This document shows, one piece after another, positions 40,663-56,664 of a stretch of 64,000 bases of DNA (its first letter is position 1; each line of letters starts with the position of its first letter). The translations under genes were made by a program, and so were the position numbers. The notes under the pieces are model-generated. The model was not told where the DNA came from. It saw only the letters and a list, made by a program, of their open reading frames with translations, and did not search any database. This stretch comes from Streptomyces sp. NBC_01454 (GTDB lineage Bacteria; Actinomycetota; Actinomycetes; Streptomycetales; Streptomycetaceae): assembly GCF_036227565.1 (NCBI RefSeq), contig NZ_CP109460.1:496001-560000 (forward strand), written 5' to 3'.

Positions 40663-43125
40663 TCAGGCAGTGGCCGCCGGCGGCTGGGTGAGGTCCAGGT
40701 CGAGGAACTCTTCGGCGCCGCCGGCGAGGGATATCGGTGCGGCGTGCGGCGGATATCCGGCTGCCGTGAGGGTGTAGTGACTGCCGCTCAGCTCGGCGAA
40801 GGCGAAGGCGCCGTCCGGGCCGGTGACCGTGTGCCCGGCGACCGTGCCGTCCTCGACGAGGGTCACGGCGGCATCGGCGAGTGGCCGGCCGCCCGGGCCC
40901 CGCACCGTGCCACGGACCGTTGCGGCCGGCTGCAGCCGGGCATCCTGCCGATCCGGCGCGCCGCCGGACAGGTGCAGCGCACGGGCCTGCGGGCGGTGCC
41001 CCGGGGCACTGAGGACCAGGGTGTACGAGCCGGGCGGCAGCTGCGTGACCTCCCAGCGTCCTTCGGCGCCGGAAGTCGTACGGGCCACCACCTCGCCCCG
41101 GGCGTCGGTGACGATGACGCTCCCGCCGTCCAGCGCGTTGCCGTCCGGGCCGCCGGACAGGGTGCCGTGCAGCCGGCCGGTGCCGGTGAGGGTCAGGTCG
41201 ACCCGGGGCCGGGCCTGCGCGCCGCGGCTGATGGCGGAGGCCGCGTGCGGGGCGTGGCCGGGCGCGGCGGCGGTCAGGACATAGGTGCCGGCCGCGGGGG
41301 CGTCGAGTGCATAGCGGCCGTCGGCGCCGGCCGTGGTGACGCCGGCCTGGCGGCCCTGACGGTCGATCAGGGTGACGCTCGCGCCCGGGACCGGAATGCC
41401 GGAGGCGTCGGCCACCATCCCGTGGAATCCCGACGCACGATCGGCCACCCGGACGTCCGCGGTCTGCGTCCGGGACGGCGCCGGAATCCCCGCCGAGGCG
41501 GCCGGTGCGGCGGATGCGGGCGAGACCACGGACGCGGGCGAGGCGCCCGCCGTCGGCACCGCCGTCACGGCCTGCGGGCGCGGCGTGCCGGTCACCACAT
41601 CGTGGTGCTCCGCGCCCACCGCATCGTCCGTGCCCTGCGCGACCAGGGCCGGGCGGGACGTCTTCAGCTGCGACGGCAGGAAGGACGCCAGGGCGACGCC
41701 GACCAGGACCGCGGCCGTGGCGATCAGGAAGGAGACCCGGAAACCGGCCATCGTGGGCACCGTGACCCGTCCGACGCTCGTGGACATATGGGCCAGCACC
41801 ATGCCGATGACCGCGCTGGACACCGAGGTGCCGATCGAACGCATCAGGGTGTTCAGGCCGTTGGCCGCGCCGGTCTCGGAGGGATCGACGGCGCCGATGA
41901 TCAGTGCGGGCAGCGAGGAGTACGCCAGCCCGATGCCGGCGCCGAGGACCACGGCGATGATGACGGTCTGCCAGGCGGCGTTCATCAGGCCCATGCCCGC
42001 GCCGTAGCCGATCGCGATGACCAGCATGCCCAGCAGCAGCGAGACCTTGGGGCCGCGTCGAGCGGCGATCCGCGCATACAACGGGGCTACGCACATCATC
42101 GTCAGACCCAGCGGCGCCATGCACAATCCGGCCACCACCATCGACTGGCCCAGGCCGTATCCGGTGGACGTGGGCAGCTGGAGCAGCTGCGGCAGCACCA
42201 GGGAGACCGCGTAGAACGCCACACCGACCGTGATCGAGGCGAGGTTGGTCAGCAGCACCTCACGCCGGGCGGTGGTCCGCAGATCGACCAGCGGATCGGG
42301 CAGGCGCAGCTCCATCACGGCCCACAGCACCAGGATCAGCGCGGCGAGGCCGAACAATCCGAGGGTGGTGGGTGAACCCCAGCCCCAGTCGCCGCCCTTG
42401 GTGATGGGCAGCAGTAGCGCCACCAGCCCGGCCGACAGTCCGAGGGCGCCGGCCACGTCGAAGCGCCCGTGGGCGCGTACCGCGCTCTCCGGTACGACGA
42501 GGAGGGTGAGCACTATCGACAGCACACCGAGCCCGGCGGCGCCGAAGAACAGGGTGTGCCAGTCGGCGTGTTGGGCGACCAGGGCCGCGACCGGCAGCGC
42601 GAGTCCGCCGCCGACCCCGATCGAGGAGCTCATCAACCCCATCGCCGAACCGAGCCGTTCACGCGGCAGCTCGTCGCGCATGATGCCGATGCCGAGGGGT
42701 ATGGCGCCCATGGCGAAGCCCTGGAGCGCCCGGCCCACGATCATGGTGACCAGGTCGTCGGTGAATCCGCAGACGAGCGAGCCGACGACCATGATGGCGA
42801 GGCTGGTCAGCAGCATTCGCCGCTTGCCGTTCAGGTCGCCGAGGCGTCCCATGATCGGCGTCGCGACGGCACCGGCGAGGAGAGTGGCGGTCAGGACCCA
42901 CGTGGCGTTGCTGGGTGCCGTGTTGAGCAGCACCGGCAGGTCCTTGATGACCGGCACGAGCAGCGTCTGCATCACCGCGACGACGATGCCGGCGAAGGCC
43001 AGCACGGGGACGATGGCACCGCCGGCTCTGCGCTGCCCGCCCGTGGCCGGGTCGGCGGGCACCGGGGGCGCCGCGGCGAGGGTCGCCGTCCTTCCGGCTG
43101 GCTGGTCCGTCGTCGTCCGGGTCAT
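40663..43125 (-). CDS. MFS exporter fused to three carboxypeptidase-regulatory-like domains
   Basis: An 820-residue protein. Residues about 35-490 are a 14-helix DHA2-type MFS permease (GRLGDLNGKRRM motif A, and GSAMGLMSSSIGVGGGLALPV). After a Pro/Ala/Ser linker come three repeats of a carboxypeptidase-D-regulatory-like beta-sandwich: FHGMVADASGIPVPGASVTL, LHGTLSGGPDGNALDGGSV and VRGTVRGPGGRPLADAAVTL, each followed by a GRYAL/GRWEV/GAFAF strand and a PAGTYVLTA-type strand. With an even helix count the tail would face the cytoplasm. This fusion is uncommon; the domains may bind substrate or a partner. GGAGG lies 8 nt before the ATG. Confidence 0.88.
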   Translation of the reverse strand: MTRTTTDQPAGRTATLAAAPPVPADPATGGQRRAGGAIVPVLAFAGIVVAVMQTLLVPVIKDLPVLLNTAPSNATWVLTATLLAGAVATPIMGRLGDLNGKRRMLLTSLAIMVVGSLVCGFTDDLVTMIVGRALQGFAMGAIPLGIGIMRDELPRERLGSAMGLMSSSIGVGGGLALPVAALVAQHADWHTLFFGAAGLGVLSIVLTLLVVPESAVRAHGRFDVAGALGLSAGLVALLLPITKGGDWGWGSPTTLGLFGLAALILVLWAVMELRLPDPLVDLRTTARREVLLTNLASITVGVAFYAVSLVLPQLLQLPTSTGYGLGQSMVVAGLCMAPLGLTMMCVAPLYARIAARRGPKVSLLLGMLVIAIGYGAGMGLMNAAWQTVIIAVVLGAGIGLAYSSLPALIIGAVDPSETGAANGLNTLMRSIGTSVSSAVIGMVLAHMSTSVGRVTVPTMAGFRVSFLIATAAVLVGVALASFLPSQLKTSRPALVAQGTDDAVGAEHHDVVTGTPRPQAVTAVPTAGASPASVVSPASAAPAASAGIPAPSRTQTADVRVADRASGFHGMVADASGIPVPGASVTLIDRQGRQAGVTTAGADGRYALDAPAAGTYVLTAAAPGHAPHAASAISRGAQARPRVDLTLTGTGRLHGTLSGGPDGNALDGGSVIVTDARGEVVARTTSGAEGRWEVTQLPPGSYTLVLSAPGHRPQARALHLSGGAPDRQDARLQPAATVRGTVRGPGGRPLADAAVTLVEDGTVAGHTVTGPDGAFAFAELSGSHYTLTAAGYPPHAAPISLAGGAEEFLDLDLTQPPAATA

Positions 43126-43860
43126 GCGGGTGGCCTCCAGGGCGGCAGAGAGGAGCGCGGTGTCATCAGGCGTGGCAGAGCGGAGTGAGCAGGATGCGCA
43201 GGGGCGAGTGGCGGTGGTGGGAGGGCAGGGAGGAGCGGCGGGCGTGCGAGGTGTGGGGCGTCGCCCTCGGGCAGCGACCCGGTCAGGCCATTGATACGTG
43301 CATGACGAACGCGTTATCCCGGAGCACTATTCCGCCACACCGGCCGGTTTCTCCTCCACGCGGTCGTGATCTGCCTCACGCGACAGCGCCCCGCGCTCTC
43401 CCCCACCCCGTTCATCGGGCCTCCCCCGGCCTCGTCGGGAACGCGGAATCCACCGACCCCGCACATCCAGTGAACCGCACACCACTGACAGTCCGCCCGG
43501 AAAGCGATCGCCGCACCTCGCGCCCGCGTGCAGGGTGCGGCGCCCACTGGTGCACCCGTCAACAGCGAGAGGCGCCGCGGTTCTTCCGCGACGCCTCCCA
43601 CTCCGGCCCACACCCCACCGACCTGCACACTTCGCACACGACTCGGCCACGCGCCCGGCATACAACACCGACTACGCGGTATTTTTCAGCCGCCCTGAAT
43701 GCGCTGCATTTCCTTCACACCCTGAACTGAACTGAATTGACCTGAACCGACCCGAACCGATCTGAACCGACCCGAACTGCCGCGAGTACGCGGAGCCTTC
43801 CCGTCAGACCGACTCGCCCCGAACCGCGTCGCCCCGCCCCCACCCGGCCGACGCCGGGGC
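43126..43860. other. 735-base intergenic region with decamer repeats
   Basis: No credible gene is seen. The right part has a six-copy decamer repeat (43721-43780). Near 43292-43318 there is a GATACG...CGTTATC imperfect inverted repeat upstream of the exporter, which could be an operator. Confidence 0.5.
43721..43780. repeat. Six tandem decamers, period exactly 10
   Basis: Six successive 10-mers fit the consensus NCYGAAYYGA (e.g. CCTGAACCGA, CCCGAACCGA, TCTGAACCGA). The period equals about one helical turn, so the copies would lie on one face of the DNA. The array is 80 nt beyond the stop of the gamma-butyrolactone receptor gene. Confidence 0.8.
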
Positions 43861-44535
43861 TCAACTCACCGCGATCTCGGCCTCGACGGCCCCGCGGCCC
43901 TTGCGCTGCAGCGCGGCATCGAGTTCCGCGCCGCGTTCCGGATCCAGTTTGAGCTTGGCGAGCACGGCGGGCACCGCGATGCTGGGGAGGGTGTGCTCGA
44001 AGAACACCGTCAGGCGGTGACTGAGGTCGGCCTGGTTGGTCAGGGCGTTCGACATCAGCTGCAGACCGGCGAACGCGCCGACGAAGAGCTCGGCGGTCTC
44101 GGTGACCACGACGCTCTCCAGAACCTCACCGCGATCCCTCGCCTGGTTCAGCAGATCCTCGACGAACCGCGTCCAAGCGATCATCCCCTGCTTGCGGTCG
44201 AGGTGGTTGGAGCCCTGCTCCACCGCCAACCGGGCCGCCCCGCGCTGGATCGGGTCACTGCGCAGCCGGTAGGCGAGCACCTGCCCCGCGTCGACGAACT
44301 CCTGGAGTTTGATCTTCTGCGGCTCCACGGCGATATCCGTCACATGCTCATCGAGCACGGCCAGGGCGAGCTGTTCCTTCGAGGCGAAGTGGAAATACAA
44401 GGCGCCCTTCGTCACGCCGGCGCGCTCGAGGACCTCGGCGATGGTCGCACGGTCGTAGCCGAGGTCGTCGAAGACCGAAGCGGCTGCCTCCAGGATCAGT
44501 CGCCGGGTCCGGATAGCGCGGTCCTGTTGTGCCAC
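43861..44535 (-). CDS. Gamma-butyrolactone receptor, TetR family (ArpA/ScbR type)
   Basis: A 224-residue repressor. The DNA-binding half (TRRLILEAAASVFDDLGYDRATIAEVLERAGVT, then GALYFHFASKEQLALAVL; about 10-62) is the characteristic ArpA/ScbR/BarA form. W121 (GMIAWTRFVEDLL) aligns by position with the ligand-contacting Trp119 of ArpA, which favours a true receptor over a pseudo-receptor. It should bind the afsA-linked operator and leave it when the gamma-butyrolactone accumulates, switching on antibiotic production or development. GTG start with AGGAGG 6 nt upstream; divergent from the afsA homologue. Confidence 0.93.
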   Translation of the reverse strand: MAQQDRAIRTRRLILEAAASVFDDLGYDRATIAEVLERAGVTKGALYFHFASKEQLALAVLDEHVTDIAVEPQKIKLQEFVDAGQVLAYRLRSDPIQRGAARLAVEQGSNHLDRKQGMIAWTRFVEDLLNQARDRGEVLESVVVTETAELFVGAFAGLQLMSNALTNQADLSHRLTVFFEHTLPSIAVPAVLAKLKLDPERGAELDAALQRKGRGAVEAEIAVS

Positions 44536-44637
44536 AGGACGCCTCCTGTCTCTTGATGTTTTTTCACGTTCCGCATCAGTTAGCTACCGCTCAAGTCGCC
44601 GCTGAGCCAGCTACTTGCTCCGTTTCGCCGCCCGGCA

Positions 44638-44667
44638 TTGAAAATAAAACCGGATGGTACGTATCTT
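44638..44667 (+). promoter_or_regulatory. Autoregulatory element (ARE) overlapping the afsA-homologue promoter
   Basis: The reverse complement of 44641-44667 reads AAGATACGTACCATCCGGTT followed by TTATTTT. This matches the BarA-type ARE as I remember it (AGATACATACCAACCGGTTC...) at nearly every position. The same bases contain a promoter-like TTGAAA (44638-44643), an 18-nt spacer and TATCTT (44662-44667), so receptor binding would block RNA polymerase. The element lies 44 nt before the afsA-homologue start. Confidence 0.75.
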
Positions 44668-44710
44668 AACAGCGCCGGACCTCATCCCATTGAGACGCCT
44701 GGGGGCAGTC

Positions 44711-45691
44711 ATGAGCGACACGATGCACGTCAGCGGCACTGTTCCACCCAGGGCTCCACATCAGTCATCCCTGCACCGAAACCAGGCCGCATCCGGGGAC
44801 CACCGAGGCCCTTGTATTCCCCGGGAGTTCGTGCACCGCCCGCGCGTCGACGACATTCTGGTCACCTCATGGCGCCGGCGGGACACCTCCCACTTCTCGC
44901 TGACCGCCCAGTGGCCGCACGACCACGGGTACTTCACCCCGGTACACGGCCGCCATCACCTCATTCTCACCGGCGAGACCATCCGCCAGGCAGGGCTGCT
45001 GCTGTGCCACACCGAGCTGGGCGTACCGGTCGGGCACCATTTCATCCTCGGTGACCTGGTATACACAACTCATCCCGAGCATCTGGCCGTTGGCCAGGGA
45101 CCGACCCGGCTGACGGTCGAGGTCCGCTGCAGCCGGATGCGCTTCCGGTCCGGCACGCTCACCAGTGGCCACTTCGACATGACCATCCGCAGGGCGGACC
45201 GGATCGTCGCGACGGGCCACTCCGACGTCACCGTCACCTCCCCGGCCGTCTACCGCCGGATCCGCGGTGCGCGGCTGACCGCGCGCCACGCCCTCGCCCC
45301 GCTCCCCGCACCCATCCCGCATCAGCTGACCGGCAGCGCCCATGACAGCGATGTCCTGCTCTCCCCCACCGGCCGGCCCGATCGCTGGCAGCTGCGCATC
45401 CCGCCCGGCCACGCCGCGATGGTCAACCCGGCCAACGACCACATCCCGGGGATGCTGCTGCTCGATGCCGCACAGCAGGCCGCCCGCACGCTGGCCGCTC
45501 CCCAGGCTTTGATCCCCTACGCCTTCGGCACGGAATTCCGCCGCTACGCGGAACACGGCACCCCCTGCATCATCGAGGCGCGGCGCGTCCCGTCCGCGCT
45601 CCCCTGCACCACGACCGTCCAGGTCACCGGCTCCCAGGACGGCGAGCCGGTGTTCATCTCCACCTTGACGGCGCTGGACGCACGCCCCTGA
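44711..45691 (+). CDS. AfsA/ScbA-family gamma-butyrolactone biosynthesis protein
   Basis: A 326-residue enzyme with two hotdog-like A-factor repeats. The first has FVHRPRVDDILVTSW and GETIRQAGLLLCHTELGVP. The second has NPANDHIPGMLLLDAAQQAAR and a final TEFRRYAEHG block. AfsA enzymes condense a beta-ketoacyl chain from ACP with dihydroxyacetone phosphate, the first committed step to the signalling lactone. The ATG at 44711 is taken as the start because the open frame upstream runs through the operator. GGGGGCA lies about 5 nt upstream. It is divergent from the receptor gene and followed by a reductase. Confidence 0.92.
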   Translation: MSDTMHVSGTVPPRAPHQSSLHRNQAASGDHRGPCIPREFVHRPRVDDILVTSWRRRDTSHFSLTAQWPHDHGYFTPVHGRHHLILTGETIRQAGLLLCHTELGVPVGHHFILGDLVYTTHPEHLAVGQGPTRLTVEVRCSRMRFRSGTLTSGHFDMTIRRADRIVATGHSDVTVTSPAVYRRIRGARLTARHALAPLPAPIPHQLTGSAHDSDVLLSPTGRPDRWQLRIPPGHAAMVNPANDHIPGMLLLDAAQQAARTLAAPQALIPYAFGTEFRRYAEHGTPCIIEARRVPSALPCTTTVQVTGSQDGEPVFISTLTALDARP

Positions 45692-45800
45692 ACGGACCGC
45701 CCGCGGGCGTCCTGGGCACCGACAGCCACCTCACGCCCCTCCCGTCCACGTCGGGGGCGGCAGCATGTTCATCTCAGCACAGGAAAGGCCCTCACACATC

Positions 45801-46565
45801 ATGGGTGACCTCACGGGAAAGACCGCACTGGTGACGGGAGCCAGCCGTGGCATCGGCCGGGGCATCGCCCAGCGACTCGCCGGGGACGGCGCGCTGATCG
45901 CCGTCCACTACGGCAGCAATGACGCCGCGGCCAAGGAAACCGTCGAAAGCATCAGCAGCGCGGGCGGCCGGGCCTTCACGGTGGGAGCGGAACTGGGGGC
46001 TCCGGGTGCTGTCGAAGCCCTCTTCGCCGCCTTCGACGCCGAACTCGCGGCCGCCGGTGCGGAACCCGGCCTCGACATCCTCGTCAACAACGCGGCGCTC
46101 AACTTCCCCGGGCGCATCGACGAGGTGACGTACGAGGAGTTCGACCGCACCGTCGCGGTCAACATCAGGGCCCCGTTCTTCCTCGCCCAGCACGGTCTGC
46201 GCCGGATGCGGGACGGCGGACGCATCATCAACATCTCGTCGGCGGTGACGAGTACGGCGCACCCGGCACAGATCGCGTACAGCGTCTCCAAGGGCGGGCT
46301 GGACACCCTCACGCGCACCCTCGCCAAGGACCTCGGCGCACGCGGGATCACGGTCAACACCCTCGCCCCCGGCTGGGTCGAGACCGATGTGACCGCGTCG
46401 CGCAGGGCCACACCCGAGGGACGGGCCGCGCTGGCGGCCTATTCGGTGTTCAACCGGATCGGCCGCCCGGCGGACATCGCGGACGTCGCCGCGTTTCTGG
46501 CCTCGGATGACTCCCGTTGGATCACCGGCCAGCGCCTCGACGTCACCGGCGGCTCCATGCTCTGA
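45801..46565 (+). CDS. Short-chain dehydrogenase/reductase
   Basis: A 254-residue classical SDR. TGASRGIG (residues 12-19) binds NAD(P), NNAA follows, and the catalytic set is Ser in NISSAV plus Y-x3-K in YSVSK. GWVETDV and the C-terminal GQRLDVTGG are typical of 3-oxoacyl-ACP-reductase-like members. It lies 109 nt downstream of the afsA homologue in the same direction and could reduce the 6-keto group of the butyrolactone, as BarS1 does for virginiae butanolide (inference from position). An upstream ATG at 45765 would add 12 residues; the MGDLTGK start fits the family better. Confidence 0.88.
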   Translation: MGDLTGKTALVTGASRGIGRGIAQRLAGDGALIAVHYGSNDAAAKETVESISSAGGRAFTVGAELGAPGAVEALFAAFDAELAAAGAEPGLDILVNNAALNFPGRIDEVTYEEFDRTVAVNIRAPFFLAQHGLRRMRDGGRIINISSAVTSTAHPAQIAYSVSKGGLDTLTRTLAKDLGARGITVNTLAPGWVETDVTASRRATPEGRAALAAYSVFNRIGRPADIADVAAFLASDDSRWITGQRLDVTGGSML

Positions 46566-55425: not shown

Positions 55426-56664
55426 ATGGCAGGCAACACGGACCCGCTGTCGCCGCGGGCCAAGCTGGCCGTGACGGCGGGCAAGGCCGCGGCGGCGGTA
55501 TCGCGCGCGGCGGGCCGCGGCAGCGGATCGGTGATCGGTGGCCGGGTGGCGCTCAAGCTCGACCCCGACCTGCTGGCGCGGCTGGCCGGACACTTGGACG
55601 TGATCCTGGTGTCGGCGACGAACGGCAAGACGACCACGACACGGCTGATCGCGGAGGCGCTGCGGGCCAGCGGCCCGGTGGTCTCCAACGCGCTCGGCGC
55701 CAACATGCCGGCCGGTATCACCTCGGCACTGGCCGGCGGGTCGGACGCCAAGTACGGCGTCATCGAGGTGGACGAGAAGTACCTCGCCGGTGTGGCGCGC
55801 GATGTGACGCCGAAGGCCATAGCGCTGCTGAACCTCTCGCGCGACCAGCTCGACCGCGCCGCGGAGACCCGGATGCTGGCCGAGCACTGGCGCGAGGGCC
55901 TGGCGGGCTCCAAGGCGCTGATCATCGCCAACGCGGACGACCCGCTGATCGTGTGGGCGGCCTCGTCGTCCGCGAATGTGGTGTGGGTCGCGGCCGGGCA
56001 GGAGTGGAAGGACGATGCCTGGTCCTGCCCCTCGTGCGGTGGTGTGATGCAGCGGCCGGGCGAGGACTGGTTCTGCGGCGAGTGCGGCTTCCGCCGTCCC
56101 ACGCCCAGCTGGGCGCTGTCCGGCGATCATGTGCTCGATCCGCACGGCAGCGCCTGGCCGATCAAGCTCCAGCTGCCGGGGCGCGCCAACAAGGCGAACG
56201 CCACCACGTCCGCCGCGGTCGCCGCCGCCTTCGGGGTGCCGCCGCAGGTGGCCCTGGAGCGGATGTTCTCGGTGCAGGCGGTGGCCGGCCGCTATGACGT
56301 GGTCACGTTCATGGAGCGGGAGCTGCGGCTCCTGCTGGCGAAGAACCCGGCCGGCTGGCTGGAGACGTTCTCGCTGATCGACCCGCCGCCGACCCCGGTG
56401 ATCATGTCGGTGAACGCGCGGGGCGCGGACGGCACGGACACCTCGTGGCTGTGGGACGTCGACTACACCCGGCTGGCCGGGCACCCGCTCTTCGTGCTGG
56501 GCGACCGCAAGCTGGACCTCGCGGTGCGCCTGGAGGTCGCGGGACTCGACTTCCATGTGTGCGAGAACCTCGACGAGGCGGCACGGATGGCGCCGCCCGG
56601 ACGGATCGAGGTCATCGCCAACTACACGGCCTTCCAGGACCTGCGCCGCCGCGTGGGCAACTGA
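55426..56664 (+). CDS. murT: Lipid II isoglutaminyl synthase, MurT subunit
   Basis: A 412-residue Mur-ligase-like protein that with GatD amidates the D-Glu of lipid II, a step needed for peptidoglycan cross-linking. The ATP loop is SATNGKTTTTRLIAEAL, and the MurT-specific four-Cys zinc ribbon is CPSCGG...CGECG near the middle. A C-terminal domain with the VIANYTAFQDLR end completes the family form. AAGGAGG lies 10 nt before the ATG at 55426, preferred over an ATG seven codons upstream. GatD follows after 38 nt. Confidence 0.95.
   Translation: MAGNTDPLSPRAKLAVTAGKAAAAVSRAAGRGSGSVIGGRVALKLDPDLLARLAGHLDVILVSATNGKTTTTRLIAEALRASGPVVSNALGANMPAGITSALAGGSDAKYGVIEVDEKYLAGVARDVTPKAIALLNLSRDQLDRAAETRMLAEHWREGLAGSKALIIANADDPLIVWAASSSANVVWVAAGQEWKDDAWSCPSCGGVMQRPGEDWFCGECGFRRPTPSWALSGDHVLDPHGSAWPIKLQLPGRANKANATTSAAVAAAFGVPPQVALERMFSVQAVAGRYDVVTFMERELRLLLAKNPAGWLETFSLIDPPPTPVIMSVNARGADGTDTSWLWDVDYTRLAGHPLFVLGDRKLDLAVRLEVAGLDFHVCENLDEAARMAPPGRIEVIANYTAFQDLRRRVGN

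Follow-up and report, generated by a model that had tools for sequence, protein, structure and literature searches.

A putative gamma-butyrolactone-type signalling switch with a strongly conserved operator on its synthase promoter in Streptomyces sp. NBC_01454

We asked whether a receptor gene and a divergent signal-synthase gene of Streptomyces sp. NBC_01454 form a hormone switch in which the receptor represses synthesis of its own ligand, and whether such a switch reaches beyond its own locus. The window studied is a stretch of 64,000 nucleotides (contig NZ_CP109460.1, positions 496,001 to 560,000), and coordinates without a prefix refer to it. A first-pass annotation made from the letters alone had described a receptor with a ligand-pocket tryptophan, a divergent AfsA-type synthase, a downstream reductase and an ARE on the synthase promoter. 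Each of these was recovered; the locus is well supported as a canonical gamma-butyrolactone-type signalling switch, of a known and largely ordinary kind, and the operator already spotted in it is real and strongly conserved. The features of the locus are as follows:

40663-43125, minus strand: DHA2-type MFS transporter carrying a series of CarboxypepD_reg repeats at its C terminus (Pfam)
43602-43564, minus strand: hairpin with a 17-bp stem and no T tract, beyond the second palindrome and before the transporter gene
43665-43682, minus strand: second ARE-like palindrome, ATACCGCGTAGTCGGTGT, matching the AvaR1 consensus at 17/18 and placed 178 bp beyond the receptor stop
44535-43861, minus strand: ScbR-family autoregulator receptor, 224 aa, GTG start
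44638-44667, plus strand: synthase promoter TTGAAA-18-TATCTT (TTGAAA at 44638-44643, TATCTT at 44662-44667)
44647-44664, plus strand: ARE core, AAACCGGATGGTACGTAT, on the synthase promoter, found by consensus match, orthologue footprint and independent matrix
44711-45691, plus strand: ScbA/BarX-family (AfsA-type) signal synthase, 326 aa
45801-46565 (ORF from 45765), plus strand: short-chain dehydrogenase, probable signal ketoreductase (adh_short_C2, 190.5 bits)

The receptor and synthase genes are transcribed divergently from a gap of 175 bp. The locus is flanked by [NiFe] hydrogenase genes on one side and DNA-repair genes on the other, and no obvious antibiotic cluster was seen among the neighbouring genes scanned. 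Our literature search, whose coverage excluded most subscription papers, found no title or abstract describing this locus; in PMC10111032, on the orthologous species Streptomyces endophytica, the word butyrolactone occurs once.

Conservation was followed in 21 orthologous loci, i.e., 9 Streptomyces loci and 12 loci from the 391 genus genomes searched besides the window's own. The synthase encoded in these loci shows at least 62% identity, the other genomes listed reaching at most 47%. Counts over 22 rows include the window and leave out L032, a copy of it; the rows are not all independent, L026 and L038 as well as L030 and L041 being identical over the aligned stretch. The receptor lay opposite the synthase in all 21 orthologous loci, and the dehydrogenase followed the synthase in 19 of them, the exceptions being L039 and L040. 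The switch is thus conserved within a Streptomyces clade whose members include kronopolitis, sioyaensis, lydicus, nigrescens, endophytica and inhibens.

The receptor (receptor A below) gave a full-length match to the curated equivalog NF041196 (218.4 bits against a cut-off of 150, model positions 1-191 of 191). Its closest solved relative was AvaR1 (6wp7, E 1.3e-59), followed by 5xay, deposited as a gamma-butyrolactone receptor protein (E 6.3e-51). Trp121, the sole tryptophan of the protein, falls in the column of AvaR1 Trp127, as expected of the pocket residue named in the first-pass annotation, and the equivalents of the pocket Trp and of Gln165 of AvaR1 are both kept in 22/22 rows of the receptor alignment. 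AvaR1 Gln64 and Thr108 are not kept, the window receptor having His64 and Ala108; across the rows, column 64 is His (12/22) or Gln (10/22) and column 108 is Ala, with Ser in L040, and Ser or Ala also occurs at 108 in other receptor-like rows from distant loci. The AvaR1 residue roles are those given in PMC7347384, whose numbering shifts by one in places and which describes Gln64 and Thr108 as largely, not strictly, conserved in the receptor family. The pI of the receptor, 5.45, is in keeping with that of genuine receptors as described in PMC7480387.

The synthase matched the equivalog NF041195 over its full length (329.7 bits, cut-off 200) and carries two AfsA domains (PF03756, two stretches); no solved relative of it was found. 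ATG 44711 is a likelier start than ATG 44654, which lies inside the ARE, because ATG 44711 is kept in 22/22 rows. The dehydrogenase, in which the motifs TGASRGIG and YSVSK were seen by eye, probably begins at ATG 45801 rather than 45765, since the alignments of its orthologues start inside the ORF, at residues 4-13 (at residue 8 or later in 18 of 19). A part for this enzyme in finishing the signal is supported by its genomic link to signal clusters, seen both in the orthologous loci that have it and in the plasmid relatives examined. In a plasmid search Streptomyces sp. BHT-5-2 gave the best match, at its orthologous locus (74.9%); four of the other records were examined, of 25 listed (H2, H3, H4 and H10; 57-63% identity), and all four have the gene beside ScbR and/or ScbA family genes. 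Against such a part stand the huge size of the family (at least 5000 plasmid records match), the fact that the protein passes no NCBIfam cut-off among the matches listed, and its best solved relative, an antimycin-pathway ketoreductase. Its reaction, presumably that of a side-chain ketoreductase, is proposed by analogy with enzymes described in PMC5735094 and PMC12301235.

The ARE core was compared with two footprint-derived consensus sequences, AAACVGNNBVNNCSGTTT of SfbR (PMC7480387) and AWWCCRBBHDDNMSGTWT of AvaR1 (PMC5744401), and scored 16/18 and 17/18, respectively; its right half is imperfect, reading ACGTAT in place of CGGTTT. Scores as high were reached by 83 (SfbR) and 14 (AvaR1) of 3000 gap-length Markov sequences; a consensus match of one sequence alone would be only suggestive, and it is the addition of the orthologues that is decisive. 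Scores of 17/18 to the AvaR1 consensus were confined, within the window, to this site and the one at 43665, and in 80 kb taken from elsewhere in the genome to two sites at system C (see below) and a third, L022:17140-17157 (AATCCGGGTAGGCCGTTC), about 20 kb from system C. The pair TTGAAA-18-TATCTT is the only promoter-like pair in 43100-44760 (mean in shuffles 0.0, sd 0.2), and the ARE core occupies its spacer and overlaps its -10 box. The 27-bp site originally proposed, 44641-44667, was said to cover both promoter boxes: it does enclose the core and all of TATCTT, but only half of TTGAAA.

The exact core was found in 20 of the 22 rows, with a single change each in L028 and L039, and 16 of its 18 positions are invariant. 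Invariant columns number 29 of 34 in 44636-44669 against 8 of 76 in the flank 44560-44635; on average the rows are 97% identical to the window in the former stretch and 65% in the latter. More distant synthase promoters carry a related element, an AAAC-starting site in the same orientation being present upstream of the matched frame in 13 of 17 such loci. Nine distinct sites from those 13 loci, with nothing from the window or its orthologues, were used to build a matrix; L056-L059, whose best sites lack the AAAC start, were left out. It was scanned over both strands of 330,244 bases in 36 stretches, 20 of which had been chosen for holding an ARE-like pattern. With the directional matrix the window ARE came first among all positions scanned (26.8 bits), followed by the site upstream of synthase C (20.1 bits) and, in third place, by a position at 16.6 bits, the best off a synthase promoter. 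With the symmetric matrix a site in L095 (20.2), one of those 20 chosen stretches, stood above the window ARE (19.7, second). A symmetric-matrix match at 55701 (17.4) was taken as chance, as it lies inside a MurT-like gene, and an earlier matrix containing the sites under test was set aside as circular.

In the 9.46-Mb genome, both curated cut-offs are cleared by three receptor/synthase pairs:

System A: the window locus
System B: near C1:915,000
System C: near C1:1,991,000

Several synthases per genome are not unusual, many genus genomes having 2-4 matches. The two pairs besides that of the window, at L019:15044-17671 and L021:12553-17417, have HAD-type hydrolases nearby. The neighbours of system C include a pseudo-receptor-type TetR protein, below the receptor cut-off, and a ring-reductase-like ADH_N_2 oxidoreductase, and a phosphatase-type enzyme also lies beside its synthase/receptor pair. 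The earlier description of the window locus as a full signal-making module goes too far, as neither a ring reductase nor a phosphatase was found among its scanned neighbours. Three of 18 positions distinguish the site on the synthase C promoter from the window ARE, and the recognition helices of receptors A and C are alike except for one residue. The pattern AAACCNNATGGTNCGTAT was derived from these two sites and so matches them by construction; its informative result is the lack of a third exact match in the genome. One more place matched with two mismatches, and the reversed control gave no match. System B has no such site on its synthase in the region scanned (best 14/18 to AvaR1; its best SfbR score, 15/18, is inside the receptor gene). 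In the recognition helix, receptors A and C share Lys43 with AvaR1, where this residue contacts DNA (PMC7347384); receptor B has Ser at that position. With three systems and two near-identical synthase operators, cross-talk is directly testable.

Our preferred reading, to which we assign a probability of about 0.88, is that the receptor represses its own signal synthase through the ARE until the ligand appears, as in a canonical gamma-butyrolactone-type locus. Without signal, a receptor dimer would occupy 44647-44664 and block the synthase promoter, so that the synthase, and probably also the dehydrogenase behind it, which may be co-transcribed, would be made only slowly. The diffusible ligand would then accumulate and enter the pocket lined by Trp121, the receptor would release the ARE and synthesis would rise. 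Direct repression of this kind, predicted in the first-pass annotation, is supported at the sequence level by the curated family models, the promoter geometry, the orthologue footprint and the matrix made without the window site. Speaking against the canonical reading are the replacement of AvaR1 Gln64 and Thr108, the imperfect right half-site, the modest single-sequence chance figure and the unexplained site at L022:17140.

The same switch might instead respond to a butenolide (avenolide- or SRB-like) and not to a reduced gamma-butyrolactone. AvaR1, the best solved relative, is a butenolide receptor, the scanned neighbours include no ring reductase, and close relatives of the dehydrogenase lie beside ScbR, ScbA and P450 genes on pSGRIFU1, an arrangement that we take to be like the SRB locus of pSLA2-L. 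AfsA-type synthases, however, serve both ligand classes (PMC12301235), the ring-reductase-like ADH_N_2 gene of system C could act in trans, and the loss of Gln64 and Thr108 sets the pocket apart from that of AvaR1; a butenolide ligand is unlikely in our estimate. It is more improbable still that the ARE is real but is held in the cell mainly by receptor C or the pseudo-receptor-like protein, most of the action of receptor A lying elsewhere: the near-identity of the A and C operators and recognition helices would allow it, but the ARE is conserved together with the adjacent receptor in 21/21 orthologous loci. Nor does the coincidence of the conserved block with a -35/-10 pair make it just a strong promoter lacking an operator, a reading that we consider exceedingly improbable, since the 18-bp spacer is conserved as much as the boxes and the same spacer sequence recurs at synthase promoters whose proteins share less than 50% identity.

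The locus is close to several known systems. In ScbA/ScbR of Streptomyces coelicolor, synthase and receptor likewise diverge and the synthase promoter carries an operator (PMC2444045). There the receptor gene has an operator too, OR (PMC2444045), whereas no separate site above chance was found on the 5' side of the window receptor (best 14/18, the usual best of random sequence), and a palindrome lies past its stop. In SfbR/SfbA of Streptomyces filipinensis an 18-bp ARE overlaps the promoter boxes, as here (PMC7480387). On its own gene SfbR leaves a footprint far upstream of the start, at positions -136 to -164 (PMC7480387), which we count as a further likeness; on this analogy the window receptor gene might also respond to the synthase ARE, which lies about 110 bp upstream of its start. 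The SfbR/SfbA cluster differs in containing a pseudo-receptor and five ARE sites, the pseudo-receptor-like gene of the present genome being elsewhere, at system C. AvaR1/Aco, the avenolide system of Streptomyces avermitilis, provides the closest solved receptor and a consensus that the window ARE fits at 17/18, but the window synthase is AfsA-type, not Aco, and two pocket residues differ. BarS1, of the virginiae butanolide system of Streptomyces virginiae, is a short-chain dehydrogenase. That system, BarX/BarS1, resembles the window locus by its description as an AfsA-type synthase with a further signal-making enzyme (PMC7554373).

Control of a distant antibiotic cluster had also been suggested, together with a motif scan of the genome. 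The pattern AWACCGNNNNNNCGGTWT, allowing at most one mismatch, occurred at 23 places against 9 for the reversed-pattern control. Two of the 23 are the window and the system C synthase, the latter a near-identical operator, and the other 21 were covered by 20 stretches; a crude GC3 filter placed 11 of these 21 within an ORF, and one more, L101, falls within an ORF with a DAHP-synthase match. No antibiotic regulator was found among the ten neighbouring proteins scanned, which include a recombinase, an ERF-family protein, an SDR, a P450, a WXG100 protein and a PTPS protein. The genome has nine BTAD (SARP) matches, and their loci were part of the matrix scan. L106 was the only SARP locus among the best 22 rows per matrix. 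Its site, AAACAGGTCCCTGTCTTT (13.0 and 14.3 bits), precedes the likely start of a 656-aa SARP by about 160 bp, at C1:1798414, and polyketide-type tailoring genes are adjacent; the dyad within this site does not fall in register with an ARE, and the site is therefore a lead only. Control of a distant cluster by the window switch is thus unproven, this weak site being the sole candidate. As the locus combines synthesis, sensing and a precise operator, control of silent antibiotic clusters is testable by deleting one receptor. The surroundings of the 656-aa SARP, L116:5878-19187 (C1:1790877-1804186), encode SchA/CurD, halogenase/monooxygenase-like, methyltransferase and DegT proteins. A short SARP fragment (L112, C1:8241723-8241911; BTAD positions 84-146 in a 98-aa frame), lies near the contig end; some 1.7 kb away, at 8239980, an ORF matching DAHP synthase contains a near-perfect ARE-like palindrome.

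The second ARE-like palindrome is conserved too. The motif ATACCGN6CGGTGT was kept at 12/12 positions in 14 of the 22 rows and at 10-11/12 in L028, L036, L039 and L040, so that it is present in 18/22, always 72-178 bp past the receptor stop; it is borderline in L042 and absent from L035, L043 and L044. Its flanks have diverged among the orthologous loci. As an RNA hairpin it was rejected, folding little better than shuffles (z -1.47 and -1.40 for the two strands). The hairpin at 43602-43564 is a possible end of the receptor transcript: the folding energy of 43540-43620 is -45.7 kcal/mol (z -4.15), and the terminator scan of 43100-44760 did not call this hairpin. The sole terminator-like hit of that scan, inside the receptor gene and within chance, was dismissed.

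It is conceivable, although rather doubtful, that the receptor gene of this clade, lacking a separate 5' operator, is controlled jointly by the two sites that bracket it, the synthase ARE upstream and the palindrome past the stop, through DNA looping, a transcription roadblock or an ARE-controlled antisense or transporter promoter, and that receptor A also controls the system C synthase through its near-identical site, joining two hormone systems. The palindrome is cheap to test. Whether the transporter belongs to the switch is uncertain; most of the orthologous loci whose flanks reach far enough have it next to the receptor, an adjacency that alone says little because 199 of 246 genus genomes carry relatives of its MFS part. 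Upstream of the transporter, CTGTCAGTGGTGTGCGGTTCACTGG at 43467-43491 (minus strand) is conserved in 12 of 14 aligned loci and occurs once in the genome within three mismatches. We take it to resemble a TTGTCAGTG-type DNA-damage promoter; the DNA-repair genes flank the locus at its opposite end.
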